Assembly: GCF_002813455.1 (NCBI RefSeq)
Contig: NZ_PHHE01000001.1
Coordinates: forward strand, 1,240,001 to 1,304,000
Length of the DNA: 64,000 nucleotides
Source of the DNA: Pseudomonas baetica
GTDB taxonomy: Bacteria > Pseudomonadota > Gammaproteobacteria > Pseudomonadales > Pseudomonadaceae
Direction: 5' to 3'
The notes under the pieces: generated by a model
The model's input: only the letters and a program-made list of their open reading frames with translations
What the model was told of the DNA's origin: nothing
The model's database searches: none
In this document: in pieces, positions 25,497-40,172 of the stretch
Numbering within the stretch: the stretch's first letter is position 1
How the letters are laid out: each line of letters starts with the position of its first letter
Position numbers and translations under genes: made by a program

Positions 25497-25651
25497 TTCG
25501 CGAGCAGGCTCGCTCCCACATTCGATCTGTGCCAGGCATGGATTTGTGTTCGCTCGAAATCCCCCTGTGGGAGCGAGCCTGCTCGCGAAAGCGTCTTCTC
25601 ATTCATCGATGATGCTGAGGTTGCCGACCTCTTCGCGAGCAGGCTCGCTCC
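25497..25651. repeat. Cluster of three REP copies
   Basis: An inverted REP pair (25497-25589) is followed by a third, 3'-truncated copy (25632-25651). The third copy lies within the reading frame of the usher gene and codes part of its C-terminus. Confidence 0.9.
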
Positions 25652-28142
25652 TGATTTGATCTTTGGAATGGCACACCAGCGAGGCCCGCTCGTAGTTCAG
25701 CGCCTTGTTGCGTTCCGGCAAGGCATAAGGCGCCTCACACCGCTGGCCCTGCCAGTTGATGGTCAGGGTACCGGCGTCGGCTTCTACCAGCGCCAGTGCC
25801 TTGCCGCCCGGGTCGGAGATCGCCAGTTGCTTGCCGGCGCTGTCCTCCAGCGAGGCGCCAAACGGGATCGGCTGGTGTTGCGCGTCGAACAAGGCGAACT
25901 GCACGCGGCGTCCGGTCTTGCTGGTGTAACGCGCCAGCACCACCGCACCACGGCGTGGCACCACTTGCCGGGTCGCATTGTCGATCTCGATATCGCCGCC
26001 CAGATCGCGGGTGTCGAGGTTGATCCAGTTCACGCGATAGGGCTGCGCATTGGGCACCACGGCGAAGCCGTTACTGCCGGTCTTGGCCCCGGTGAAACTG
26101 CCGATTTTCACCCCTTCCACGCCTTCGACCTGCGCCAGCGCGAATGTCTCGCCTACGGTTTGTCCAAGGTTGATCCCGCCGCCGTGGCCGACGATCGAAC
26201 CTGCCAGATTCAGGTTCTGCGAGTTATAGCCGCGTCCCTGGCTGTAACCGGCACTGATGTCCATCACCGAGGTGCGGGTGCTGAGGTTGACCGAGCCAGA
26301 GCTGCCGCCGGTGCTGCTGCTACCACCTTGCACCGAATAGTAAGTATCGCTGTCTTCCGTCAGGTAACCATTGATGCCCACTTGGGTGCTGTCGGTGGCT
26401 TTCTGTGTGCTCGCGGAAACAAAGGCACGGGGTGCACGAGGTTTCGAACCCAGCGGGAACGACAGCGACAGGTTGACCAGTGTGTCGTTGTTCGCCGGCC
26501 CATAGTTGCCGATATCCTTGGAGTAGGTGGCGCCGAGGTTGTAACTGACTTCGCCCCAATAGTTGCTGTAACCCGCCGACAGGCTTTGCGAGCCGCCGCG
26601 CCCCCAATAGCGCTGGTCACTGGCGTTGAGGTAGATGCTGCCATATTGCTGATCACGTCCCAGGCTCTGGTTGACGGTCAGGTCGGTGCGGGTTTTCGAG
26701 TTGCCCGTGCGTTTTTCGCCCTCGTGGCTCAGTTCCTCGACGTGGTCGCTGAGGGTGCGATAGCCCTCGGTCGAATAGCGATAGGCGGCGAGGGTGAAGC
26801 TGGTGTCGGTACCGGTGAACGTCTTGGCGTACAGCGCGCGCAAACTGTTGCCCTTGACCACTTGGCCAAAGGTACGACTGGCGGAATGGGTGACGTCGAG
26901 CGACACGGCACCAATCGGCGTATTGCGCCCCGCGCCCACGGACAACGCCTGGAAATCCTCGGTCGCCTGCACGCCGACGATGCCGGACAAGTTGCTGCTG
27001 ATGCCATAGGCCAGCGTGCTGCTGACAAACTGCGGCGACTGTTGATCATCGCTGTTGCTGTTGTATCGGCCGGCCGAGACGCTGTATTTCAACTGACCCT
27101 GGCGCACCATGATCGGCAGGCTGGAAAACGCCTGCACCGTCACCCGGCGCTGACCATCGGCCTCGATGATCGTTATTTCCAGATCCCCGTTGGAACCGCT
27201 CGGATAGATATCGCTGATCTCGAATGGGCCCGGTGGCACGTTGGCGCTGTAGAGCATGTAGTTGTTCTGCCGAATTTCTACGGTGGCGCTGGACTGCGCA
27301 ATCCCGCGAATCACTGGCGCATAGCCGCGCTCACTGTCGGCGCGCATGCCATCGTCAGAGGCCAGTTTCAGGCCGCGATAGCGCACGCTGTCGAACAGGT
27401 CGGCGTCGGAGAAAATATCGCCGGCACTGAACTGGCCTTTCAACGCGGTCAGGTCATGTTGCAGATAGCTGCGGTTGCTCTTGAAGGTGCTTGGCTGGCC
27501 CGTACTGCTGTTGAAGTTGGACTCGTTGCGCAGGCGCCAGCCACCGAAGTTGATGCCGTTGCGCAGGCCGATGTTATTGGAGATCGTATTGGCCGTTTGC
27601 GTGCTGTTACGGTTGCTGCTCAGCTGATAGTTGATAAACGCCGCAGGCACGCCGTCGTCCCACAGCGCCGGGTCGACATAACCCCGTCGGCCGCGCTCCA
27701 TGGCGCTTTGCGGCACGCTGACCATCAGGCGCAGGCGCGGCACGTCGTAACGCACGCTGGCATGCTCGATCAGCGCGGGCAGGTCGAGGCAGGCCTGCGG
27801 ATCGTCAGCATCCAGTTTGCCGCTGGCCTGCAACTTGGCTATGTCGACGCCCAACTGCTGGACCATTTCCAGGGTCAGGCAGGCCTGGATCTTGCCGTTG
27901 CCGGGGTGGCGACGGAAGTCGATGTCGCGACGACCGACCAGCGCGTCGTTGCTGTAGAGGTCAACCCGGTAGTTGCCGGGCAGGACGCTGTTGCTGGCGA
28001 GCAGCGATTGCACATCAACGGTCGACGCGGCGCCTTGCAGAAACGACGTGTTGAACTGTTCATCGCCGTCAGCCTGGCACGCCGTGCTGATGGCCGAGGC
28101 GATCAACAACGATGCCAGGCCGTCGCGTTTGAGTAAAAACAT
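25599..28142 (-). CDS. Fimbrial outer-membrane usher
   Basis: The 847-residue protein has a signal peptide (LLIASAISTACQA), an N-terminal chaperone-binding domain, a 24-strand barrel with plug, and a C-terminal PapC-like domain (GKQLAISDPGGKALAL, then LTINWQGQRCEAPYALP). It secretes and polymerises the subunits delivered by the chaperone encoded upstream. A strong GGAGGTGAT ribosome site lies upstream. The last 18 or so residues (IRSEPAREEVGNLSIIDE) come from a REP copy and adjoining DNA, so the natural stop was probably lost. It is the last gene of the fimbrial operon. Confidence 0.93.
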   Translation of the reverse strand: MFLLKRDGLASLLIASAISTACQADGDEQFNTSFLQGAASTVDVQSLLASNSVLPGNYRVDLYSNDALVGRRDIDFRRHPGNGKIQACLTLEMVQQLGVDIAKLQASGKLDADDPQACLDLPALIEHASVRYDVPRLRLMVSVPQSAMERGRRGYVDPALWDDGVPAAFINYQLSSNRNSTQTANTISNNIGLRNGINFGGWRLRNESNFNSSTGQPSTFKSNRSYLQHDLTALKGQFSAGDIFSDADLFDSVRYRGLKLASDDGMRADSERGYAPVIRGIAQSSATVEIRQNNYMLYSANVPPGPFEISDIYPSGSNGDLEITIIEADGQRRVTVQAFSSLPIMVRQGQLKYSVSAGRYNSNSDDQQSPQFVSSTLAYGISSNLSGIVGVQATEDFQALSVGAGRNTPIGAVSLDVTHSASRTFGQVVKGNSLRALYAKTFTGTDTSFTLAAYRYSTEGYRTLSDHVEELSHEGEKRTGNSKTRTDLTVNQSLGRDQQYGSIYLNASDQRYWGRGGSQSLSAGYSNYWGEVSYNLGATYSKDIGNYGPANNDTLVNLSLSFPLGSKPRAPRAFVSASTQKATDSTQVGINGYLTEDSDTYYSVQGGSSSTGGSSGSVNLSTRTSVMDISAGYSQGRGYNSQNLNLAGSIVGHGGGINLGQTVGETFALAQVEGVEGVKIGSFTGAKTGSNGFAVVPNAQPYRVNWINLDTRDLGGDIEIDNATRQVVPRRGAVVLARYTSKTGRRVQFALFDAQHQPIPFGASLEDSAGKQLAISDPGGKALALVEADAGTLTINWQGQRCEAPYALPERNKALNYERASLVCHSKDQIRSEPAREEVGNLSIIDE

Positions 28143-28226: not shown

Positions 28227-28976
28227 TTATGGCGTTTCTTTCTTTGGACTGGCGCTGGTGTCAGCGCTATTGGAAAGTTGCGCGGTATAACGATCTTGGG
28301 CACCATAGTCGTTAATGCTGCTGAACAACAAATTTGCCGCATTAGTTGAATGAAGTTGTTTGAGGTCGAACTCTTTGCGTTCGCCGGGGGCGATCATCAT
28401 CGAATCAAACGGGTGCTCGCTGAGTGCGCCGGATTGCAGGGTGATATCGGCAATCGACACGTGATAAAGACCGGGGTTGTTCACCACCAGCACGCTTTTG
28501 CCGGCGCGCTCGGCCAGGCGCCAGGTCAATTCACCCGGTGCCAGATAGGCGTTTTTTTTCAGACCGGCCGGACGGAAGAACACCTTGATGCGCTGGCGTA
28601 CAGCAAGTTGCAGGGTGTTCTGGGTCTTCGCGTTCTGGGGGATTTCCTGCACGTTGAGCCAGACCACCGATTCGCGGTCGGTCGGCATGCCGGTGCCTTC
28701 GTAGATGACCCGCAGTATTTGCTGTTCGTCGCCGCTGACGCGCACCAACGGCGGTGTGACTGCAAACGGCACGGAAGCGGATTCGCTGGCATCGGTGTCG
28801 ATCCACGACTGGACCAGAACATCTGCACCGCTGTTACGCACGGTGATGCCGGCTTCCTTGTGCTGGCCGTCGAAGATCAGGCGGGTGCTGCTCAGGGAAA
28901 TGCCGGCCGTGGCCTGATTGACCACGAACAGGCCCAGCAGGCCTGCGCAAAAGGACAATGAGTGACGATAAAACAT
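28227..28976 (-). CDS. Periplasmic fimbrial chaperone (PapD family)
   Basis: The 249-residue protein has a signal peptide (LLGLFVVNQATAG) then the chaperone start ISLSSTRLIFDGQHKEAGITV, an alternating hydrophobic G1 strand (NTLQLAVRQRIKVFFRPAGL) and a two-Ig-domain layout. It stabilises fimbrial subunits by donor-strand complementation and delivers them to the usher. It sits 84 bases before the usher gene and 72 bases after the major subunit gene, from which it is divided by a strong hairpin. Confidence 0.92.
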   Translation of the reverse strand: MFYRHSLSFCAGLLGLFVVNQATAGISLSSTRLIFDGQHKEAGITVRNSGADVLVQSWIDTDASESASVPFAVTPPLVRVSGDEQQILRVIYEGTGMPTDRESVVWLNVQEIPQNAKTQNTLQLAVRQRIKVFFRPAGLKKNAYLAPGELTWRLAERAGKSVLVVNNPGLYHVSIADITLQSGALSEHPFDSMMIAPGERKEFDLKQLHSTNAANLLFSSINDYGAQDRYTAQLSNSADTSASPKKETP

Positions 28977-29004
28977 GATGGTTACCGCGCAAGTGATTGA
29001 AAGC

Positions 29005-29024
29005 GCGGGGCCGGGCGGCCCCGC
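29005..29024 (-). terminator. GC-rich hairpin between major subunit and chaperone genes
   Basis: GCGGGGCC and GGCCCCGC form a perfect 8-bp stem with a GGGC loop, with no T-run after it. It may protect the subunit mRNA or attenuate transcription so that the subunit is made in excess over chaperone and usher. Confidence 0.6.
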
Positions 29025-29048
29025 ACTGGGCTCGAGTATTCGCGCGGG

Positions 29049-29642
29049 TTATTCGTATTGCAGGGTGAACGGCAGGGTGGCATCGCCGCGACCGGCAACA
29101 GCCAGTTTCGGGTCAACCGTGGTGACGTAGGCGGCCGAAAATTTCAGCGTGGTATTGCTGTCCTGCAGGGTGTTTTCGATCTTCGCGGTGGCTGGCGAGC
29201 TCAAGTCGATCACGGCACCATTGGCGTCGAGCAAGGCGATACCGATGCCTTTTGCAGCCCCCAGGCCGCTGATCAGTCGCAGCACTTTAGTGCCAGGTTC
29301 GATGCCCGAACCGGCGCCTTTGGTCGGTTCGAAGAGCATCGCAACCTTGGTCCCGGCATTGCAGTTGATCTTCATGTCGAAGTTCTCGACGCTCAACGTG
29401 CCGTTGCCTTTAGGTGCGGTGGCGGTGCCCATGTCCTTGATCGACACTTCACCCATGGCGACCGAAATGGTCTTGTCCTTGCCAGCGCTTTCAACCGAAC
29501 AGGCGTCGTTGTTGATGGTGCCGGTGAAGTTGATGGTGCCGCTGCCGGCCTTGGTCGGGGTCACTGGCGGGTCGGCTGCCAGGACATTGCCGGCGGCAGC
29601 GAAGATCGAAAGTGCGAGAAGCGTTCGGGACAACTTTTTCAT
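29049..29642 (-). CDS. Major fimbrial subunit
   Basis: This 197-residue pilin has a signal peptide (MKKLSRTLLALSIFAAAGNVLA), an early beta strand TINFTGTINNDACSVE, a paired Cys (DAC...NCNAG) for the pilin disulfide, and the C-terminal donor/acceptor strand DATLPFTLQYE with the penultimate Tyr recognised by the chaperone. The internal ATG at 29642 is chosen because it opens the signal peptide; the longer frame reads through upstream DNA. An RcsB-like box lies 60 bases upstream. Confidence 0.92.
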   Translation of the reverse strand: MKKLSRTLLALSIFAAAGNVLAADPPVTPTKAGSGTINFTGTINNDACSVESAGKDKTISVAMGEVSIKDMGTATAPKGNGTLSVENFDMKINCNAGTKVAMLFEPTKGAGSGIEPGTKVLRLISGLGAAKGIGIALLDANGAVIDLSSPATAKIENTLQDSNTTLKFSAAYVTTVDPKLAVAGRGDATLPFTLQYE

Positions 29643-29702
29643 GTTGCTTTTTCCATTGGTGGGGTTAAAGCAACACAATAAAACTCGTTTTACCGATGGA
29701 AC

Positions 29703-29719
29703 ATCAGACGATTCCTAGA
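29703..29719 (-). promoter_or_regulatory. RcsB-box-like motif A, upstream of major subunit gene
   Basis: Minus strand TCTAGGAATCGTCTGAT. The same 17-base motif with one to three changes occurs at 37684 and 38739. TAGGAATnnTCTGA resembles the enterobacterial RcsB/RcsAB box (TAAGAATATTCCTA), and an RcsB-like regulator is encoded next door. Confidence 0.75.
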
Positions 29720-29752
29720 TGCGCGGAAGTTGTAGCGGAGTGTCCTGTTTTA

Positions 29753-30400
29753 TCAGCTGAACAAGTTGCGTTCTATGCAATAAGTCAACAGTTCCTGGTC
29801 GCTGCTGACTTCCAGTTTGCGCATCGCCGAGATTTTCTGCGTGCTGATGGTTTTTGCACTTCTACTTAAGTTACGGGCAATGTCGTTGACGCCCTGGCCC
29901 TGAACGAACAAACGCAGGATTTCATGTTCCTTGGGCGACAGCCTTGAGAAACGTTCATCCAGATCAGCACCGTCGTTCACCACCGATGTCGGCGCGGGTA
30001 CCTGCCAGCGCACCGGGCTGCCCTTGGCAATCGCTTTGAGGGCGGTCTCGATTTCGTCGTGCAACTGGTTTTTCTGAATGACTGCCAGCACACCCAGCTC
30101 CTGCAGGCGCGTCAGGATCAACGGATTGGAAATCATGGTCAGCACCAAAACCCGAACCTTGGGAAAGTGCCTTATCAGGTACTCCACCAGTTTCAGGCCG
30201 TCACCGTAGGTCGAATCGGCAGGCATGTTGAAGTCGGTGATCAACAGATCTACAGGCTTGGTCTCCAGCAGCTTGATCAGTTCATCGGAGCCGACGGCTT
30301 CGCCCACCACGCGAAAGCGTTGGTCACGCTCGACCAGTTCCCGCACCCCCAGCAGCACGATGGGATGATCATCGGCAATGACAACGTTGAAGGTTTCCAT
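29753..30400 (-). CDS. rcsB: RcsB-like NarL/LuxR-type response regulator
   Basis: The 215-residue protein has a receiver domain (VIADDHPIVLLGVREL; phospho-acceptor Asp in LLITDFNMP; YGDGLKLVEYLIRHFP) and a LuxR helix-turn-helix (LSPKEHEILRLFVQGQGVND, then LSRSAKTISTQKISAMRKLE). Both halves follow RcsB closely, more than most NarL-family members; RocA1 of P. aeruginosa is the nearest alternative. It probably receives phosphate from the HPt domain of the kinase encoded 22 bases upstream and activates the fimbrial genes. The repeated motif at 29703, 37684 and 38739 is its likely binding site. Confidence 0.88.
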   Translation of the reverse strand: METFNVVIADDHPIVLLGVRELVERDQRFRVVGEAVGSDELIKLLETKPVDLLITDFNMPADSTYGDGLKLVEYLIRHFPKVRVLVLTMISNPLILTRLQELGVLAVIQKNQLHDEIETALKAIAKGSPVRWQVPAPTSVVNDGADLDERFSRLSPKEHEILRLFVQGQGVNDIARNLSRSAKTISTQKISAMRKLEVSSDQELLTYCIERNLFS

Positions 30401-30422
30401 GAGTGATTTATCCAGAGTGAAG

Positions 30423-33400
30423 TTATTCGAGGGAGTCGAGCAGATCTTGCAGCCGCGTCAGATTTTGTCGCACCGCCACGGCCAGAGCGGGCGTCACGGC
30501 CATGCCGGTCAAGCGACATTCCAGCTCGACAAACGCGCTGGCCAAGGCATTGATCTGCACGGCCCCTAGCGCCCCCGCCATGCTGTGCAGTTGCTGCGCC
30601 ACGCTGTTGGCGTCGGCCGCATCCAGTGCCGCCAGGGTGGTCTGAATATCCTGGCGCAGGGTGGTGACAAACAACTCGCGCATTTTTGCAGATAGCGACG
30701 GCGGGGCATCGATAACGGGTGCCACAGCGATTTTGCAATGCTGCTCAAGTTGCGTGCGCAGGGTAGCGAGGTTCAGCGGCTTGACCATCCACGCGTTCAT
30801 GCCGACGGCGGCGCAGCGTTCGCCTTCTTCGCGCAGGGCGTTGGCGGTGACGCCGATGATCGGCAGCGTCGAGTCCTGCTGGCGTACAGCCTCGGCGAGT
30901 CGGTAACCGTTCATAACCGGCATGTTGACGTCGGTCAGCAGCAGATCGAAACGACGGGGCGCCCACTGTGCCAGAGCCTGTTCGCCATTCGCAGCGACGA
31001 TCACCGTGCAGCCGAGGGCTTCCAGTTGCTCCCTGATGATCGCCGCGTTGATCACGTTGTCTTCAGCCACCAGCACCTGCAGATTCAGTGGGCGGGTCTT
31101 TGCCTGCAACGCGGCGGGGCGCTGCGCATTGGCGCCGTGTTGTGCCAGATAAATCGCCCAGGCAATTGCGCGCACATCGTCGGCGTCGACTGCCCAGTCT
31201 GCACCGCTTGGCTGCGCCGGATTGGGGCCGCCCGCAATGGCGACGATCCGCGGCCCGCTCCAGTGCGGAGCGTTGTCGAGAGGCGTGAGGTCCACCAGCA
31301 GCGCCGAGGATGGTGGCCTCTCGGTCGTCACCGAGCGGCAATCCAGACCAAAACGGTTGAGCCAGGCCATCAGGTGCAGCGCCAGTTCGCTGATCGGTGC
31401 ACGTACATAAACGGCGGGGCTGCCGGCCTCGAACGCGGGACAGTCGGCCAATGCGCCCGGCACGTTCTCCAGCGCGAGTTGCAGGGTAAAACTGCTGCCC
31501 AGCCCCGGTTCGCTGACCACGCTCAACTGGCCGTGCATCAACTCGCACAGCCATTTGCAAATGGCCAGGCCCAGACCCGCACCGGCCTGGCTGTCGGCAT
31601 CGTTGACCTGATAGAACGGGTCGAACAATTGCTGTTGCTGCGCGGGGGAAATCCCCACCCCCGAATCGCTGACCTGCCACTGAACTTGGGCGTTGCCGGC
31701 GGCGTTTTGCAGCACGCGTACGCGCAGGACCACGCGGCCGTTGTCGGTGAACTTGATCGCGTTGCTCAGCAGGTTGTTGAGGATCTGGCGGATGCGCAAC
31801 GGATCACCGCGCAGTCGATCCGGCAAGGTCGAATCGATGCAGGCATACAGTTGCAGGCCTTTGGCGCGGGCGAATGCGCTGTAAGTACGCACAACCTCTT
31901 CAGTCAGCTCCAGCGCGCAGAAGTCCTGAAGCTCAAGGGTCATTTGCCCGGCCTCGATCTTCGACACATCCAGCACATCGCTGATCAGCTTGAACAGGCT
32001 GGCGGAGGAACGCTGGATGGTGTCCAGATAATCCTGCTGGCGCGGGGCGAGCGGTGTCAGACCGAGCAATTCGAGGGTGCCCAGCACGCCGTAGAGCGGG
32101 GTACGAATTTCATGGCTCATGGTGGCCAGGAAGCGGCTCTTGGCCTGGTTGGCCGAGTCGGCGGCCTGACGGGCTTCTTCCAGGGCGGCGGCGTCTTCGA
32201 TATGCCGGGTCACGTCATGCAACGCACACAACCAGGCATCCTGGCCTTGATAGCGCGTCGAGACGAAAGCCAGATGCAGATGCCGCCCGTCGATCTCCAG
32301 ATCGGCATGGCCGGACTCGCTGTGTGACTTGAGCAGGCTCATCAAACGGCTGCTGTCGTGCCATTGCTGGGCGCGCTGGTTTTCCAGGAGCACGTGGTGA
32401 TCGCTGCGGCGAATCACACAGAGGCCGGTCGGTGCGGTGTCGATCACCGCACGGCTGAAGGCCTCGCTTTCGGCGATGCTCGCGTGCGCACTTTGCGCGG
32501 GGATGATCACGCGTGCGGTGTACCAGCGGTTGATGGCCCGACCGCAACCAAGCAACGCCAGCACCACCGCCACGAGGCACAGCAATGGCCACAGCGCATA
32601 GCTGAGAAAACTGCGCAGGCTGATGACGTAGATCGCTGTCCAGTGTTGCGCGCCGGGGCTGCTCAGTTTGAACACCAGGCCGTCGCGGTCGACATTTATT
32701 CCATCATCCAGTACCTGGGTGGACCTCGGTGCGCCGGTCAAAACCACGCCGGCCGGGGTGATCAAGGTGAAGTCATCGTAAATCGACCACTCCATCAAGC
32801 GCTCGATGTTGTTCACCTGAGACAGTTTCAGCAACGTGCCGAGCACCACCCAGGAATCGGCGCCCTCGATGGCCTGTATAGGCTGGAGCAGATTGATCCT
32901 GACGTAGGCCAGCAGCGTCGGCGTTGCCTCGTTGTCCTGAGTAGACGGGTAGGGCACCCAATGCACTTGATGATCAGCGACTGATGACTGCTCGCGTGCA
33001 TGCTGGTTCACCTGGCTCATGACTTGGGCAAACGCGCCGATCTGCATCGGGCCGGCACCGCGCAAGCGCCCGGCGGAGGGCACAGCTACATCGAAATTGT
33101 CGGGACCATTGAGCAGGATCACTTGCGGCGACTGATAGTGCGATGCCGCCCAGAACGCGCTGTAGTAGGCGGCCAGATAACTGCCCAGTGCGAAAACCTT
33201 GGGGTATTGGTCGGCGGCGATTCTGTTCGGATCGATCTTTACACTGAACGGCAGTGAAAACGGCAAGCCGCGACCTTCATAGATATTCGGGCCTTCATCG
33301 GGCAGCAGCTTTTGCGAATAGGTGGGCAACACCACCAAAGGGAAATATTGACCCTTGGCACTGGCCTGGGAGATATCGCGCAGGAACACTTCCTGCTCAT

Positions 33401-33587
33401 GGATATTTTCCATCAACCGGGCGAAGTGAAACTGCAGAGTGTCGCGCTGCTCTTCGAGCATGCGCAGCACCCCCAGATAGCTGATGCCCAACAGCAGCAA
33501 CACCAGCGCGCCGAGCAACAACAGACTTTTGTTCAAGCGCAGCGAACTGCTGGCCAGTTTGTCCAGAAATGCATTGGTATGCGGCAT
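30423..33587 (-). CDS. rcsC: Hybrid sensor kinase with receiver and HPt (RcsC/RocS-like)
   Basis: The protein of about 1054 residues has a membrane helix (SLLLLGALVLLLLGISYLGVL), a periplasmic sensor of about 280 residues, a second helix (YALWPLLCLVAVVLALLGC), a PAS-like segment, HisKA (FLATMSHEIRTPLYGVLG), an ATPase domain (NLLSNAIKFTDNG, GAGLGLAIC), a degenerate receiver-like segment, a receiver (VLVAEDNVINAAI, LLLTDVNMPVMNG) and a C-terminal HPt (QLHSMAGALGAVQ). It can therefore run a full His-Asp-His relay to the adjacent RcsB-like regulator. ATG 33587 is preferred to an upstream TTG. Confidence 0.88.
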   Translation of the reverse strand: MPHTNAFLDKLASSSLRLNKSLLLLGALVLLLLGISYLGVLRMLEEQRDTLQFHFARLMENIHEQEVFLRDISQASAKGQYFPLVVLPTYSQKLLPDEGPNIYEGRGLPFSLPFSVKIDPNRIAADQYPKVFALGSYLAAYYSAFWAASHYQSPQVILLNGPDNFDVAVPSAGRLRGAGPMQIGAFAQVMSQVNQHAREQSSVADHQVHWVPYPSTQDNEATPTLLAYVRINLLQPIQAIEGADSWVVLGTLLKLSQVNNIERLMEWSIYDDFTLITPAGVVLTGAPRSTQVLDDGINVDRDGLVFKLSSPGAQHWTAIYVISLRSFLSYALWPLLCLVAVVLALLGCGRAINRWYTARVIIPAQSAHASIAESEAFSRAVIDTAPTGLCVIRRSDHHVLLENQRAQQWHDSSRLMSLLKSHSESGHADLEIDGRHLHLAFVSTRYQGQDAWLCALHDVTRHIEDAAALEEARQAADSANQAKSRFLATMSHEIRTPLYGVLGTLELLGLTPLAPRQQDYLDTIQRSSASLFKLISDVLDVSKIEAGQMTLELQDFCALELTEEVVRTYSAFARAKGLQLYACIDSTLPDRLRGDPLRIRQILNNLLSNAIKFTDNGRVVLRVRVLQNAAGNAQVQWQVSDSGVGISPAQQQQLFDPFYQVNDADSQAGAGLGLAICKWLCELMHGQLSVVSEPGLGSSFTLQLALENVPGALADCPAFEAGSPAVYVRAPISELALHLMAWLNRFGLDCRSVTTERPPSSALLVDLTPLDNAPHWSGPRIVAIAGGPNPAQPSGADWAVDADDVRAIAWAIYLAQHGANAQRPAALQAKTRPLNLQVLVAEDNVINAAIIREQLEALGCTVIVAANGEQALAQWAPRRFDLLLTDVNMPVMNGYRLAEAVRQQDSTLPIIGVTANALREEGERCAAVGMNAWMVKPLNLATLRTQLEQHCKIAVAPVIDAPPSLSAKMRELFVTTLRQDIQTTLAALDAADANSVAQQLHSMAGALGAVQINALASAFVELECRLTGMAVTPALAVAVRQNLTRLQDLLDSLE

Positions 33588-33673
33588 TACAGCGCCTGAC
33601 CAGCGGTGATGGGGCAGCCTTTGGACACGGTGACCTCGGTAGCGAGCGACGTTCAACAATAGCCACGTGCCGC

Positions 33674-34861
33674 TCAGTAGGCAGTCGCTGGCCCGTCGTG
33701 GGTCAGCAAGTGCTGGAACTGGTCGGCTGAAACGGCGTGGGAGATCAGGAAACCCTGAACCTGAGTGCAGTCGATTTTACGCAACAGAGCAAGTTCTTGT
33801 GCGGTTTCTACGCCTTCGGCCACCACCGTCAGGCCCAATTGGCGACCGAGGCTGACAATGCTGGTCAGCGCCTGCGCGAGTTCGGCGTTGGCGTTGCAGC
33901 CTTGCACCAGCGCGCGGTCGATTTTCAGTTCGGTGAACGGCGCCGACACCAGGTTCATGTACGAGCTGTAGCCCTTGCCGAAGTCGTCCTGCGACAGACC
34001 GAAACCCTTGATCCGCAAGCGGCACGCGCCGGCGTAGAAGTTGCTGATGTCGTCGGGCACCGAGCACTCCATCAACTCGAAACAGATCCGCGCGGGCAAG
34101 CCTTGATGGGCAAGCACGAAAGCGAGGATGCGGTCGGGCAGGTCGTGGCTGTTGAGCAGGTGCGTGGGCAGGTTGACCGAAACCGGAATGTCATAGCCCT
34201 GTTCGCGCCAGGTCGCTTGGGCGGCGATCGCCTGTTTCAGTACGCACCAGAGCAACGGCTCTTCGAGACCGAACGCAATCAACGCCGGCAAAAATACCCC
34301 GGGCAGCAGCGTGCCATGTTCAGGATGATTCCAGCGTACCAGCGCTTCGGCGGCGACGATCCGGCCATTGTTCAAAGCCTTCTTCGGTTGAAACCAGGCT
34401 TGCAGTTCACCGTTGTCCAGGGCGTTGCAAATACTCTGGCGATCGATGCCGGGATGGATCGCCGCCGGGACGTTTTGGCGCAACGCCTGCAATTGATCGA
34501 TCAGGCAACGCAGGGCGGCTGCGTTCACTGGTTTGGAAATCAGCCCGATGACTTTCACTTGCAGGTTGCTCGCCACCAGGCTCGCGCCCATCAGCATGCG
34601 TCGTGAGGCGGCGCTCATGATCGCCAGTGCCGGGCGCGAACGTTGGGCGGCGAGGCCCTGAATAAATTGCACACCGTCCATGCCCGGCATCAGCAGGTCG
34701 GTGAGCACCAGATCGAAGTCGCGGTGTTTCAGGCAGTCCAGTGCTTCTTCGCCGTCCTTGGCGCACGCCAGATCGAAGTCACCCAACTCGCTGAACAGGT
34801 TCTGCAAGTACAGGTGCTGGAAGGGGTGGTCTTCGACAATCAGAATGCTACAGGGCTTCAT
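33674..34861 (-). CDS. pvrR: Receiver-EAL cyclic-di-GMP phosphodiesterase (PvrR/RocR-like)
   Basis: The 395-residue protein joins an N-terminal receiver (ILIVEDHPFQHLYL, phospho-Asp in LVLTDLLMPGMDG) to an EAL domain. The catalytic set looks complete: AAEALVRWNHP, SVNLPTHLL (Asn), CFELMECSV (Glu), SQDDFGKGYSS (Asp-Asp), ELKIDRALV (Lys), VAEGVET (Glu) and CTQVQGFLIS (Gln). It should hydrolyse c-di-GMP under phosphorelay control, opposing fimbrial biofilm growth. It overlaps the upstream kinase gene by 14 bases. The order kinase-EAL regulator-kinase-RcsB matches the pvrS-pvrR-rcsC-rcsB set next to cupD in P. aeruginosa PA14. Confidence 0.9.
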   Translation of the reverse strand: MKPCSILIVEDHPFQHLYLQNLFSELGDFDLACAKDGEEALDCLKHRDFDLVLTDLLMPGMDGVQFIQGLAAQRSRPALAIMSAASRRMLMGASLVASNLQVKVIGLISKPVNAAALRCLIDQLQALRQNVPAAIHPGIDRQSICNALDNGELQAWFQPKKALNNGRIVAAEALVRWNHPEHGTLLPGVFLPALIAFGLEEPLLWCVLKQAIAAQATWREQGYDIPVSVNLPTHLLNSHDLPDRILAFVLAHQGLPARICFELMECSVPDDISNFYAGACRLRIKGFGLSQDDFGKGYSSYMNLVSAPFTELKIDRALVQGCNANAELAQALTSIVSLGRQLGLTVVAEGVETAQELALLRKIDCTQVQGFLISHAVSADQFQHLLTHDGPATAY

Positions 34862-37649
34862 GGGCGACTCGTTCGTAGGGAGCCAGGACAGCGAACAAGG
34901 CTCGTAGCGTAAAAGGTTTGACCAGGCAGTGATTCATGCCGGCAGCCAGGCACAGCGCGTCCTCACCGCGCAGGGCGTTGGCGGTCGCGCCGATGATCGG
35001 AATGCTGCAACCGAGGCGCCGCAGGGCTTTGGCCAGTTCGTAGCCGTTGAGGCGGGGCATGTTGACGTCAGTCAGGACGATGTCGAACGCAGCGTCGGGC
35101 CAGAGCGCCAAGGCCTCTTCGCCATCGCTGGCCAGCGCCACCGTGCAGCCCAATTCTTCGAGCTGATCGCGCAGGATCAACTGATTGATGACGTTGTCTT
35201 CGGCCACCAGAATGTGTAGGCGCAACGGACGCATCGCGTGGGTTTCACTGTCTTGCGGGCGGTGAACGATCTGGCCGCTCTGGGCCTGGCGAACGGCCCG
35301 TTGAATCGCCAGCAGATCATTCAGATTGACCTGCCAGCCGTCGCCGCTGAACTGCGGCTCATGGGCGCCGTCACCGCTGGCCAGTACGCGCGGCCCACGC
35401 CATGCCAGGTTCGGGCGCTGTCCGAAGGCTGCGGGATACAGCTCCAGCAGCAGCGCCGTCGAATCCGGCTCGATGCTATCCGGTGCGCCGATATGCGCGC
35501 GGGCGCCCCAGCGGCGCAACCAGCCACTGATGCTGTCGGCCAGTTCGCGCACGGGCGAAACGACATAGACGAGGTCCGCGGCCAAGGGCGGCAAAGCAGT
35601 AGAGGGAGCGTTGCCGCAGCGTTGCTCCAGCGGCACGCTGAGGGAAAAACTGCTGCCCAGGCCCGGCTCGCTGACCATGCGCAGGGTGCCATTCATCAAG
35701 TGCGTCAGGCGCAGGCAAATGGGCAGGCCGAGGCCGGTGCCGGCGACCACGTTGGTGTTGCCGGCGGTCTGGTAGAACGGCTCGAAAATAAACGCCTGAT
35801 CGTCATGGGCGATGCCTTTGCCGGTGTCGGAAACCTGCCATTGCAGGCACACGCGTTCGCCTTCGCGAGCGAGCAGTCTGACCCGCAATACCACGCGCCC
35901 GGAATCGGTGAACTTGACCGCGTTGCTCAGCAGATTATTGAGGATCTGCCGTACGCGGCTGACATCGCCCAGCAGGCAATCGGGCAGTTGCGGATCGAGG
36001 CAGGCATAGAGTTGCAGGCCTTTGCTTTGCGCGGCGGCGGCATAGCCTTGCACCACTTCGTGCACCAGTTCCGGGACGGAAAACTCGCTCAGCTCCAGCG
36101 CCAGTTGCCCGGCCTCGATCTTCGATACATCGAGCACGTCGCAAATCAACTGCAGCAACGTCGCCGATGATCCCTCGATCGCACGCAGGTAACTTTTCTG
36201 CTGAGTGTCCAGATGCGTGCGCGCGAGCAATTCCAGGGTGCCCAGCACACCGTAGAGCGGGGTGCGTATTTCGTGGCTCATGGTTGCCAGAAACAAGGTC
36301 TTGGCTTCGTTGGCGGCATCGGCCGATTGGCGCGCCTGTTCCAGCGCTGCTTCGATCTGTCGCCGAGCGCTGATGTCACTGAACGCACAGAGCAAGACGT
36401 CTTCACCTTTGTAGCGGGTCGGCGCACAGCTCAGGTACAGGTGACGACCGTCGGCAGTCTCGAAGTAATCGGTCAGGCACGGCGAGTGTTGGTCGAACGC
36501 ATCACGGATCCAGCCAGCGCCCAGTTGCTCGCTGCACTGGCCCAGCCATTGCCGGGCGAGGGTGTTATCCAGCACCACTTGGCCGTCACTGCGGCGCAAC
36601 ACGCATAGCGCCACGGGGGCGGTCTGAATCACGTCGCGGCTGAACAGTTCGCTTTCCACCAGCGCCTGAATGCGCTGGATCGCCGGGGTGATGAAACGAT
36701 GTTCCAAGCGTCGGACCAACAGGCACACCAGGCTGATACTCAACACGCAGAACAGCAGCGCGCCGAGCATTTGTGGCCACAGGGCGCGCAGTACCGCCAG
36801 CAAGTCGATGGAGTAAGTCAGCTGCCAGTCCGAGGATTTCAGCTGCTTGCGCAGCACCAATTGCTCGGGCAGCCAGCCATCGCCGACGAAGCCGAAAAAA
36901 TCCTGTTGTCGCAGCAACGGCAGGTGCTGTTCGGGCGGTGGTTTGTGGCTGTTGCTGAACAGCGGTTTGCCTTGTGAGTTGAACATGGTGAACTCGCCGG
37001 CACTGTGGTCGCTCAGGGCGCTGGAGACTTCGCGGTCGTCCATTTCCAGGCCGAGCCAGCCGGAGTTGATATCGCGCGCGTCTAGACGAATGAAGATGTA
37101 TAGCTGCGAGTGGCCGTCGGCGGCATGGGTCAGCCACAGTTCCGACAATGTCGCCGTGAGCTTGAGCGCTTCCAACTGATCCAGCGTGGCCTGTGGCAAA
37201 CCGACGACCAGCGGCGTCGCGTTGTATAGCCGCAATACATGACCGCCATTGCTGACATACAGCAGATTGAGCTGCTTGGCTTTCAGGTAATCGCGCATGC
37301 GCTGGGTCAGCCAGATGCTCCATTGCTTGCCCGGCGTTTGCCCCAGCAGCAGACGGATTTCTTCTTCGGAAACCGGCACGTTTATTTTCGCCTTACGTGT
37401 GGCCGACAGGCTCAGGCTTTCCAGCAGCGCTTCACGGGTGGTGAAAAACGTATGCGCCTCAGCGATGGCGCTGCTCATGTAGCTGCGCCGCTGGGAAATC
37501 TCATTGTTGAAGGTAAACAGCAGGAAACTGTAGACGCCGCCGAGAATGCCCACCAGCAGCACCAGGGCAAAAATGCGCAGCAGACGCCGCGCCGCATGGG
37601 GCGAGGACAGGAGCGGGCTGATCTGATGGAGGTAGTTCTTCAATCTCAT
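34848..37649 (-). CDS. pvrS: Hybrid sensor kinase without HPt (PvrS-like)
   Basis: The 933-residue protein has a membrane helix (LRIFALVLLVGILGGVYSFL), a periplasmic sensor, a second helix (MLGALLFCVLSISLVCLLV), a PAS-like region, HisKA (FLATMSHEIRTPLYGVLG), ATPase (NLLSNAVKFTDSG, GTGLGLPIC) and a C-terminal receiver (ILVAEDNVINQLI, IVLTDVNMPRLNG). It ends soon after the receiver, so there is no HPt; its phosphate must pass through the HPt of the second kinase or a free HPt protein. An RcsB-like box lies 35 bases upstream, suggesting feedback. Confidence 0.9.
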   Translation of the reverse strand: MRLKNYLHQISPLLSSPHAARRLLRIFALVLLVGILGGVYSFLLFTFNNEISQRRSYMSSAIAEAHTFFTTREALLESLSLSATRKAKINVPVSEEEIRLLLGQTPGKQWSIWLTQRMRDYLKAKQLNLLYVSNGGHVLRLYNATPLVVGLPQATLDQLEALKLTATLSELWLTHAADGHSQLYIFIRLDARDINSGWLGLEMDDREVSSALSDHSAGEFTMFNSQGKPLFSNSHKPPPEQHLPLLRQQDFFGFVGDGWLPEQLVLRKQLKSSDWQLTYSIDLLAVLRALWPQMLGALLFCVLSISLVCLLVRRLEHRFITPAIQRIQALVESELFSRDVIQTAPVALCVLRRSDGQVVLDNTLARQWLGQCSEQLGAGWIRDAFDQHSPCLTDYFETADGRHLYLSCAPTRYKGEDVLLCAFSDISARRQIEAALEQARQSADAANEAKTLFLATMSHEIRTPLYGVLGTLELLARTHLDTQQKSYLRAIEGSSATLLQLICDVLDVSKIEAGQLALELSEFSVPELVHEVVQGYAAAAQSKGLQLYACLDPQLPDCLLGDVSRVRQILNNLLSNAVKFTDSGRVVLRVRLLAREGERVCLQWQVSDTGKGIAHDDQAFIFEPFYQTAGNTNVVAGTGLGLPICLRLTHLMNGTLRMVSEPGLGSSFSLSVPLEQRCGNAPSTALPPLAADLVYVVSPVRELADSISGWLRRWGARAHIGAPDSIEPDSTALLLELYPAAFGQRPNLAWRGPRVLASGDGAHEPQFSGDGWQVNLNDLLAIQRAVRQAQSGQIVHRPQDSETHAMRPLRLHILVAEDNVINQLILRDQLEELGCTVALASDGEEALALWPDAAFDIVLTDVNMPRLNGYELAKALRRLGCSIPIIGATANALRGEDALCLAAGMNHCLVKPFTLRALFAVLAPYERVAHEAL

Positions 37650-37683
37650 CCCGGCACTCTAGGGAGGGCCGGGAGCGGGGAAA

Positions 37684-37700
37684 ATCAGACGATCCTTAGA
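37684..37700 (-). promoter_or_regulatory. RcsB-box-like motif B, upstream of first kinase gene
   Basis: Minus strand TCTAAGGATCGTCTGAT, in the 54-base gap between the adhesin stop and the kinase start. Confidence 0.7.
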
Positions 37701-37703
37701 ATG

Positions 37704-38675
37704 CTAAAGGTAGTTGACGATGAAGGTGACTTCGGTGTTCGCGCTGCCGGCCTTGAGTTCGCCCGTGGGCAGACGGTAGTACGCAGCGGTTAACGGGATC
37801 TTGAAGTCGGTGCCAGTGGTGGTGAAGGCGTTGAACGGGTAGGTGGTATCGAAGGCGATCGGCTGCCCGACATCGTTCATCAATTGCAGGCCGATGCCGC
37901 TGGCGGTGGAGGTGCTATTGAGCGCAACGATGCCCTTGGTCGCGTCGATGACGGGCGTGGTGGCCTTGAGCGAATAGGTGACTTTCTTGATGCCGGTCTG
38001 GCACTGATTCAGGGCAATGTCGAAGCGCACGGTGCGGGGTTTGGCGCCCGCGTCGCTAAAGTCCTGGAGTTGATAGTCATCTCCCATCGCGACAGGGACG
38101 GACGGGGTCTGGCAGGAGGCCGCATTCAACACCAACGCGTTGGCCAAATTGAAGTTATTCAGAATCAGTTCGCCGGCTTTCAGACTGCCGAGGTTGCCGG
38201 CCGGTATCGTGATCTGCGCCGCCAACGGGCCTGACTTGACGATTTCCAGGCGGATCGAGCCTGACATCACGCCGTAGCCTTTTGGGGCGACCGAAAAGAG
38301 CGAGGGCTCATAGCGATCCAGCATACCCATCCAGATACGGAACGACAGCCCGGTCTTGCCCAGCGGGAAGGTCGTGACGCTACTGGTCGGGGAGCCAAAC
38401 GCGGGATTGACCGCTATTCCGTAGAAAGAGCTCGCATTGCACGACCAACTGTGCGAGCTCGATTGCTGCGCGGTTTCCTGATAAACCACCGTGCCATCCG
38501 GTGTGTCGGCGGGGATGGTCAGGCCGCCATTGGCCAGGCTGCCGCCATAACTGAGCGTTTGCGTGGAAGGGGAACTGTTGAAGCTACAATTCGCCGCCAT
38601 TGCGTCCGTTGCACATGCCAGCAACGTCGCCACGGCAAGAGTGAGCAGGGGGCGCTGCAGAGTTATTCGCTTCAT
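37704..38675 (-). CDS. Two-domain fimbrial tip adhesin
   Basis: The 323-residue protein has a signal peptide (LLTLAVATLLACATDAMAA), a putative receptor-binding N-terminal domain of about 160 residues, and a C-terminal pilin domain with paired Cys (AASCQTP...LNQCQTG) ending in the chaperone-recognised strand NTEVTFIVNYL. The two-domain form, larger than the major pilin, marks a FimH-like tip adhesin. It is transcribed first in the locus but lies 8 kb from the other structural genes, with the phosphorelay genes between. Motif C lies 64 bases upstream. Confidence 0.86.
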   Translation of the reverse strand: MKRITLQRPLLTLAVATLLACATDAMAANCSFNSSPSTQTLSYGGSLANGGLTIPADTPDGTVVYQETAQQSSSHSWSCNASSFYGIAVNPAFGSPTSSVTTFPLGKTGLSFRIWMGMLDRYEPSLFSVAPKGYGVMSGSIRLEIVKSGPLAAQITIPAGNLGSLKAGELILNNFNLANALVLNAASCQTPSVPVAMGDDYQLQDFSDAGAKPRTVRFDIALNQCQTGIKKVTYSLKATTPVIDATKGIVALNSTSTASGIGLQLMNDVGQPIAFDTTYPFNAFTTTGTDFKIPLTAAYYRLPTGELKAGSANTEVTFIVNYL

Positions 38676-38738
38676 GAAAAGGGCTATACGTGTCGGCCAA
38701 AGAGCGGCGTACGTTAAACACGCCGTTTGCCGATGGAC

Positions 38739-38755
38739 ATCAGGCGATTCTTAGA
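38739..38755 (-). promoter_or_regulatory. RcsB-box-like motif C, upstream of adhesin gene
   Basis: Minus strand TCTAAGAATCGCCTGAT. Flanking CCATCGG is shared with motif A, so the likeness extends beyond the core. Confidence 0.75.
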
Positions 38756-38852
38756 ACACGCTCCCGCGTCTGCGCAATCGCGGCGATGTATTAGACTCAC
38801 CAAAGCCTGAAACCGTGCAGGTTGTGCGGCCCCGGCGCAGCAGGGAGGTCAT

Positions 38853-40172
38853 ATGGTCCGCTTGAGTATGGTCTTGCTCGGTCACGACTTTGTCCGCAAG
38901 CGTTGGTCCGCGCTGGCGCTGACGGGCATTGTCTGGGGCGCGGCCGGTGTGGGCATCTTCATTGATGCGTTGGACGGCGTTCTGTATTTCCCGCTGCATC
39001 TCTTCGGCTATCTGTTGTTGCTCGAAGCGCTGATCCTGCTGCTGGTGCCGGCACCGCAAGCCGGGACCGCTGCGGCCCTGCGCAGAGGGCGAGGACTGGC
39101 TTTTCTCTTGCTGGGACTGCTGATCGTCGACCGGCAACATGTCGCTGGACTGATTCTGGCGGTGCTGTTTGGCGGGGCTTTTCTGCTCGATGGCGGTTTT
39201 CGGCTGGCGGCGGCGCTGGTGGTGCGCTTTGTCGGTTGGCAAGTGTCGCTGCTGGCGGGGTTGTTCGAAATCGGCTTTGGCGTGTTTATCCTTGAGCCGT
39301 ATCCGACGCTGTACAAGGGCACGGTGCCTTTTTGCATCGGCATGAGCCTCTTTCTCACCGGTTGCGCCTTGTTGCGGCAAGCCGTGCGCTTCAAAAACCA
39401 GCTGCCGCTGACCCGTACTGCTGCAGTGAGTGCGCCGACCAGCAGCGCCGCGTTAGTGATTCACGTCTGGACCCCCAGCGGCACCGTCGACGACACCTTG
39501 GTGCGCAATCGTCTGCTCAACCGCTACATCGCGGCGGTCGACATCAACGGCGTGATCTCCGCCGGCCATGCGGCACTGGAATGCGGCCCGGACATTTACA
39601 TCAGCCATTACCCGCAGGATGACATTGATCGTTCGGCGGGGGATTTCGTGCGCTTGCTGCGGGCGACGCCGAACAACGATGTTGCCGGCAGGTTTTTGCC
39701 GGATTATGCCGGCGAGGTGGCGGACTGGTGTCCGTCTTCGGTGCAGGTCAGTTTTGCCCATTACGACGCCCGGCGACTCCATGCGTTCTGGGCGGACTAT
39801 CGGCAAAACAGCACTTACAATCTGACCAGTCGCAATTGTTCCAGTGCTGTCGCTCATAGCCTCGAAGCGGCGCTGGAAGGGGCGATGAACCGGGGGCATT
39901 CGAGCATGCTGGATTTTGCCCGCGTCATCTTCAGCCCTGAGTTCTGGATCGCCGCGCAAGTGCGCAAACGCGCCGAGGCGATGGCCTGGACGCCCGGACT
40001 GGTGCTCGACTATGCGCGAGCGTTGCATGCTGCGATCGAACCGGCACCGCCGGGCTGGCACAGTATTTATGCGGTGGTCAAACGGGGCTGTGGCTATGCG
40101 GCCACTGCCTTGCGCGGGCGTGAGGTGCATCCCGTTCAGCCGCCATCTGCGCATCCTTCCGACGAATCCTGA
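38853..40172 (+). CDS. HdeD-like membrane domain fused to putative permuted papain-like hydrolase
   Basis: This is a 439-residue protein. The first 180 or so residues contain about six hydrophobic helices in the HdeD/DUF308 style (WSALALTGIVWGAAGVGIF, LAFLLLGLLIVD, VAGLILAVLFGGAFLLDGG). The soluble remainder has GVISAGHAALECGPDIYISH followed about 100 residues later by LTSRNCSSAVAHSLEAAL. A His first and a Cys heading a helix later is the order of permuted papain-like (LRAT/YiiX-type) thiol hydrolases. GGGAGG precedes the ATG. It is divergent from the fimbrial locus and could share motif C. Function unknown; the enzyme call is inference. Confidence 0.6.
   Translation: MVRLSMVLLGHDFVRKRWSALALTGIVWGAAGVGIFIDALDGVLYFPLHLFGYLLLLEALILLLVPAPQAGTAAALRRGRGLAFLLLGLLIVDRQHVAGLILAVLFGGAFLLDGGFRLAAALVVRFVGWQVSLLAGLFEIGFGVFILEPYPTLYKGTVPFCIGMSLFLTGCALLRQAVRFKNQLPLTRTAAVSAPTSSAALVIHVWTPSGTVDDTLVRNRLLNRYIAAVDINGVISAGHAALECGPDIYISHYPQDDIDRSAGDFVRLLRATPNNDVAGRFLPDYAGEVADWCPSSVQVSFAHYDARRLHAFWADYRQNSTYNLTSRNCSSAVAHSLEAALEGAMNRGHSSMLDFARVIFSPEFWIAAQVRKRAEAMAWTPGLVLDYARALHAAIEPAPPGWHSIYAVVKRGCGYAATALRGREVHPVQPPSAHPSDES

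Follow-up and report, generated by a model that had tools for sequence, protein, structure and literature searches.

The CupD-type fimbrial system has been studied in one Pseudomonas aeruginosa island strain, PA14, in which PAPI-1 carries cupD together with rcsC-rcsB and pvrR-pvrS (PMC2696094, PMC3842833). In PA14, PvrS passes phosphate to RcsC and on to RcsB, RcsC also acts as a phosphatase, and PvrR lowers cupD expression (PMC3842833, PMC10418997). Since cupD1 has an RcsB site in which G-78 A-77 A-76 are required for promoter function (PMC3842833), the kind of system is already known. We analysed a related cluster in a 64,000-nucleotide (nt) stretch of the Pseudomonas baetica genome (contig NZ_PHHE01000001.1, positions 1,240,001 to 1,304,000; hereafter the window). 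Its genes lie on the minus strand in the order adhesin-like, PvrS-like, PvrR-like, RcsC-like, RcsB-like, major subunit, chaperone and usher, the Pvr and Rcs names being borrowed from PA14 (PMC2696094), and three copies of an RcsB-type box stand among them. From the sequence, we consider it highly likely that this is a CupD-type locus with three RcsB-box activator-dependent promoters, including an autoregulatory loop and a predicted leaderless kinase mRNA. The analysis extends the system to many environmental species.

The window and PA14 share four regulators with the same domains: an RcsB-like protein with a receiver and a LuxR-type helix-turn-helix (HTH) domain, an RcsC-like kinase with an Hpt domain, a PvrS-like hybrid kinase without one, and a PvrR-like receiver-EAL protein. 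In both, pvrS lies upstream of pvrR, rcsC lies upstream of rcsB, and chaperone-usher genes are present; in the window the subunit, chaperone and usher genes are linked to the regulators. An RcsB-type site also precedes the major subunit gene at a near-equal distance (78 nt in PA14 and 77 nt in locus L127, where the GAA of TAAGAATCGTCTTA starts 77 nt before the subunit ATG). L127, which has its cup genes opposite the regulators, belongs to the same family and stands in for PA14 because every match to PA14's own locus in plasmid records was below 60%. The PA14 cupD1-5 genes form one run opposite to the regulators, whereas all genes in the window are collinear; we take the opposite orientation to be a trait of PA14 rather than a defining feature. 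Unlike in PA14, no adhesin or second chaperone gene follows the usher gene here, and the adhesin gene lies by itself upstream of pvrS and has a separate box. The box on pvrS was not found mentioned in the parts of the PA14 papers used.

Two other systems are similar. The RocS1/RocA1/RocR system of P. aeruginosa (cupB and cupC; PMC2696094) also combines an unorthodox kinase, an HTH activator and an EAL regulator, and RocR (3sy8) is the closest solved structure to the PvrR of the window, but here there are two kinases and the activator is RcsB-like. The enterobacterial RcsB/RcsAB box (consensus TaAGaatatTCcta; PMC4325325) is likewise a 14-base-pair (bp) element with the left half TARGRAT, located upstream of the -35 region. 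It differs in its ATAT centre and TCCTA right half, compared with a centre of ATCG and a right half of YCTGA or TCTTA in the boxes described here. The box, the regulator and fimbrial control are therefore known from PA14. In contrast, no description of a separate adhesin box, a regulator-operon box, a fixed 23-nt rule or a leaderless kinase start was found in the parts of the PA14 literature used or in our searches.

Three RcsB-type boxes at a fixed distance from the predicted -10

The first-pass annotation had placed a 17-base motif upstream of the adhesin, first kinase and major subunit genes, with an RcsB-like regulator encoded in between, and had proposed that it fits the RcsB box pattern. 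We located these copies, all on the minus strand, as box A (TCTAAGAATCGCCTGAT; 38739..38755, 14-mer core 38753-38740) in the adhesin promoter, box K (TCTAAGGATCGTCTGAT; 37684..37700) before pvrS-pvrR-rcsC-rcsB, beginning 3 nt past the adhesin stop, and box S (TCTAGGAATCGTCTGAT; 29703..29719, core 29717-29704) in the major-subunit promoter. The earlier placement was sound: 63, 34 and 60 bases intervene before the respective genes (given as 64, 35 and 60, the counting differing by one), and the RcsB-like gene, at 30400-29753, is indeed encoded between the boxes. The match to the RcsB box also held, as 9 of the 14 positions in each copy agree with the published RcsAB consensus and each copy is a 14-bp inverted repeat with a TaAG...TC core. 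The repeats are imperfect in the window, with G at position 3 of the subunit box and C at position 10 of the adhesin box, and symmetric in many relatives.

With up to three mismatches allowed, the window contains these three sites only, whereas 100 shuffles gave a mean of 0.35 and a maximum of 2. The genome scan suggested in the first-pass annotation also returned these copies as the only exact matches to the 17-mer in the 6,902,809-base genome, all at the cluster. This genome-wide count is partly circular, because the pattern came from the same copies; independent support comes from the loci of relatives, which also carry the boxes at the same genes and with a fixed distance to the -10.

In the window, a predicted -10 hexamer lies 23 nt past the core of each box: TAACGT for the adhesin gene (38711..38716), TAGAGT for pvrS (37656..37661, 6 nt before its ATG) and TATTGT for the subunit gene (29675..29680), all on the minus strand. 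We looked for the same spacing at the 93 exact boxes (TARGRATYGYCTKA) of the window and the loci of 40 relatives (exact matches only, skipping sites less than 60 nt from a locus start or less than 110 nt from its end). TANNNT occurred exactly 23 nt downstream in 86, compared with an expected background of 0.26 of 93, at 24 nt in three, and no more than twice at each of the remaining offsets between 0 and 69. The seven exceptions comprise these three at 24 nt, two with CANNNT at 23 nt and two with neither. Across the 93 boxes, the hexamer at 23 nt starts with T in 87, has A second in 88 and G fifth in 69, and ends in T in 89. When spacers were clustered at 80, 70 and 60% identity, 65/72, 53/60 and 36/42 representatives kept the spacing. 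The spacer columns carry 0.01–0.63 bits, and hence the flanks have drifted apart around a conserved box.

With the hexamer numbered -12 to -7, the box occupies -49 to -36. The 23-nt spacing therefore centres it near -42.5, where an activator adjoining the -35 region would sit. The six bases after the box, in the -35 place, are unlike TTGACA beyond the first T. A scan of window positions 28900-38900 found no sigma-70 consensus promoter, compared with 2.4 in shuffles, as expected if the promoters are activator-dependent. RcsB homodimer sites usually lie upstream of the -35 region (PMC5651002), and, judged from the predicted -10, the boxes are upstream of and next to this region.

The RcsB-like protein of the window aligns to solved chains named RcsB over residues 1-208 (E about 1e-43). 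Residues D10, D11, D56, T88 and K110, the usual receiver residues, are invariant in the 11 sequences compared. In E. coli RcsB, Lys180 contacts bases (PMC5829831); it is kept as K183 in the window's protein, while S184 corresponds to T187 here and to A in some relatives. We infer that RcsB binds the three boxes, and the same regulator very probably turns on its own control genes as well as the surface-fibre genes. The proposal of a fimbrial regulon thus stood, but the predicted regulon is wider, since the middle box would drive the regulator operon. Within the P. baetica genome it does not appear to extend further: a -10 at the required spacing was absent from all 20 inspected of the 31 two-mismatch sites, and a wider regulon was rejected on this basis.

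Distribution of the box across the genus

We searched for rcsB in 298 genomes of the genus and found it in 146 at E ≤ 1e-30 and in 76 at E ≤ 1e-60. The 40 relatives come from the 47 best-ranked genomes, of which G263, G017, G197, G176, G158, G061 and G077 were passed over in favour of full clusters; one of the 40 loci, L041, is cut by a contig end. In these loci the box recurs before pvrS, the subunit gene, the adhesin gene or a chaperone gene in the adhesin's place. The gene downstream was pvrS at 41, the subunit gene at 33, the adhesin gene at 13, a chaperone gene at 10 and none of these at 4 of 101 sites, a tally biased by retaining one-mismatch sites only with TANNNT at 23 nt. The last four face a contig-cut subunit, two related small opposite-strand proteins, receiver-like by eye, and a protein that is pilin-like by eye.

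Across the 298 genomes, the 17-base pattern (THTARGRATYGYCTKAT) had 110 exact matches in 54 genomes, compared with one for the reversed control. The box was present in 48/76 rcsB-positive genomes (E ≤ 1e-60) and in 6/222 others (Fisher p 7e-29, uncorrected for relatedness). One of these six, G206, has its cluster split over contigs and accounts for two of the 16 matches that are distant from rcsB. The other 94 of the 110 lie within 10.5 kb of it, and so the motif is not common and unrelated to fimbrial genes, one of the outcomes that the first-pass annotation had named as refuting it.

Several of these 16 matches also precede fimbrial genes (this survey kept one-mismatch sites only with TANNNT at 23 nt). 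In L094 and L095, a box with the -10 spacing stands before an adhesin gene (Fimbrial domain) unlinked to the cluster, and the clusters of the same genomes (L039 and L042) have no adhesin match before pvrS. A box precedes a fimbrial gene in L103, where the best RcsB of the genome is weaker (E 4e-46), and a papD-like gene in L091; in L100, a fimbrial-like gene begins 365 nt past a box that lacks the -10 spacing. Boxes in L093, L096, L099, L104 and L105 look like chance matches, being in coding sequence or having no near fimbrial gene downstream.

A number of observations weigh against control of these genes by RcsB through the box and the fixed -10. Among rcsB-positive genomes, 28/76 have no exact 17-mer. 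L070 has no box (up to one mismatch) before pvrS, rcsB is not followed by a subunit match in L049, L063, L065, L067, L068 and L070, and the subunit genes of L064 and L069 lack an exact box. The subunit site of L127 has CATCAT, not TANNNT, at 23 nt. Boxes were also examined in 22 of the 80 named loci (L158-L179), counting one- and two-mismatch sites only with TANNNT at 23 nt and hence giving a biased tally; under this rule, 5 of 11 more diverged Pseudomonas loci (L158-L168) and all eight loci outside Pseudomonas (L171-L173 and L175-L179) had no site. In a sister genus, the box is a variant (TTAGAWTYGTCTKA) followed at 23 nt by CANNNT in 13 and GANNNT in 3 of 16 pvrS sites, never by TANNNT, and the -10 reading is therefore weaker there. 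Finally, the boxes in L092, L097, L098 and L106 lie by paralogous regulator genes and lack the -10 spacing.

These last four sites bear on the strongest alternative, that the protein on the box is another NarL/LuxR-type regulator, such as a Roc-type RcsB paralogue, or RcsB with an auxiliary partner, and not an RcsB homodimer. The left half of the box is more regular than the right half (CTGA in the window), and E. coli RcsB uses partners (PMC5651002). However, the P. baetica genome has one RcsB homologue at E ≤ 1e-30 (10 of 42 first-look candidates scored), the boxes track this rcsB across genomes, and many relatives carry a symmetric TAAGA....TCTTA, as for a homodimer; we regard this alternative as unlikely. 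With four such sites beside regulator paralogues and none of them at the -10 spacing, a similar box may serve a paralogue, and cross-talk between related systems is possible there. The box is about 150 nt from an RcsB-paralogue gene in three of these genomes and beside a receiver-type regulator gene in L106.

Far less probable is that the 14-mer and the -10 are together recognised by an alternative sigma factor, the 14-mer not being an activator site. The strictly fixed spacing would suit such a factor, but the 14-mer forms an inverted repeat with its end at about -36, further upstream than a -35 element would lie, the sigma-70-like TANNNT persists in the -10, and cupD expression in PA14 depends on RcsB (PMC2696094, PMC3842833). 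Least credible of all, and rejected on conservation in relatives, is that the three motifs are without function and resemble one another by chance or because one upstream sequence was recently duplicated: boxes A and S do share bases just past the 17-mer (GTCCATCGG and GTTCCATCGG), yet no shuffle of the window yields three sites, the reversed control matches once compared with 110, and flanks diverge in relatives while box and -10 stay.

The proposed circuit and the kinase start

In the RcsB-dependent circuit that we propose, each promoter would consist of an inverted repeat (ideally TAAGA-ATCG-TCTTA) centred at about -42.5, a poor -35 and 23 nt to the -10. Phosphorylated RcsB dimers would occupy each of the three boxes and bring in RNA polymerase, with PvrS feeding RcsB through the Hpt domain of RcsC, as in PA14. 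Box S would then serve the subunit, chaperone and usher genes, box A the separately transcribed adhesin gene, and box K a pvrS-pvrR-rcsC-rcsB operon, closing a positive loop that RcsC phosphatase activity and PvrR would counterbalance. RcsB would thereby raise expression of its own operon, which PA14 data support indirectly: RcsB overproduction there is said to modulate the rcs/pvr cluster (PMC3842833), although rcsB itself was the overproduced gene. If true, the loop could make fimbriation switch-like.

The kinase mRNA would start at or next to its own AUG. Including the window, 39/41 loci have a box with at most one mismatch before pvrS, the other two being L041, which is cut, and L070. The pvrS ATG is 35 nt past the box core in 34/39, 36 nt in four and 34 nt in one, and the hexamer at 23 nt reads TANNNT in 36/39. 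In the window, the 6 nt between the -10 and the ATG leave no room for a ribosome-binding site, which places the predicted transcription start at or next to the AUG. We therefore predict that the pvrS mRNA is leaderless and that this is conserved in the genus; pvrS may also be carried on a longer mRNA that reads through from the adhesin promoter. The longest Shine-Dalgarno match averaged 2.23 for pvrS and 2.98-3.15 for five other genes with at least 17 loci (rcsC had one locus), a comparison with little power, and so the leaderless prediction rests on the position of the -10. In the sister genus, the distance from box to ATG is 36 nt at 14 of the 16 pvrS sites and 35 nt at 2. Leaderless translation, if it occurs, would couple kinase synthesis to ribosome state. 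By eye, a box also stands before PapD-type chaperone genes at L043 2846 and L091 5039, with the ATG 6 nt past a CANNNT hexamer, and a leaderless start is possible at both.

The promoter rule (RcsB-type box, 23 nt, TANNNT) serves to find RcsB targets in the genus, and the circuit predicts positive autoregulation of PvrSR/RcsCB and a leaderless kinase mRNA. A broader proposal, made tentatively and somewhat short of probable, is that the box and fixed -10 act as a portable promoter cassette, dependent on RcsB, that accompanies exchangeable fimbrial genes even at unlinked sites, and that an autoregulated, conserved leaderless mRNA encodes the kinase that feeds RcsB. Fimbrial parts could then be exchanged while remaining under one regulator.

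Cluster genes and minor observations

All genes of the cluster are on the minus strand. The adhesin-like fimbrial protein (37704..38675, ATG 38675) has 323 amino acids with a Pfam Fimbrial match in its C-terminal part, and we infer a tip-adhesin role. The PvrS-like hybrid sensor kinase (34848..37649, ATG 37649) has HisKA, HATPase and receiver domains and no Hpt match, and is followed by the PvrR-like response regulator (33674..34861), with receiver and EAL domains. The RcsC-like unorthodox sensor kinase (30423..33587) has HisKA, HATPase, receiver and Hpt domains; its start is taken as ATG 33587, and the domain search used a frame two codons longer. Next are the RcsB-like response regulator (29753..30400; receiver and LuxR-type HTH), the presumed box binder, and the major fimbrial subunit (29049..29642), for which ATG 29642 was preferred over TTG 29678 because the latter falls within the predicted -10. 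The PapD-type periplasmic chaperone (28227..28976) and the outer-membrane usher (25599..28142) complete the cluster. Beyond the usher gene lies a long convergent gene on the opposite strand, which we take to be tamB.

At L055 (about 3957, minus strand) and L059 (about 2769, minus strand), an extra box with a single mismatch and the -10 spacing points towards a small protein that is receiver-like by eye; the L055 protein had no Pfam match. In PA14, RcsB also induces receiver-type genes (PMC3842833). The pvrS, rcsC, subunit and chaperone matches of L047 are split across frames, reflecting either decay or sequencing error. Four of the P. baetica two-mismatch sites (L071, L083, L084 and L088) are copies of one repeated element that starts with TYTARGGATGGTCTGAA, continues with identical sequence and has a 200-codon frame 581 nt on in all four; it is probably the end of an insertion sequence and a misleading lookalike of the box. 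Among the three-mismatch matches in the same genome, TCAAAAGATCGTCCGAT recurs many times and is probably a short interspersed repeat.

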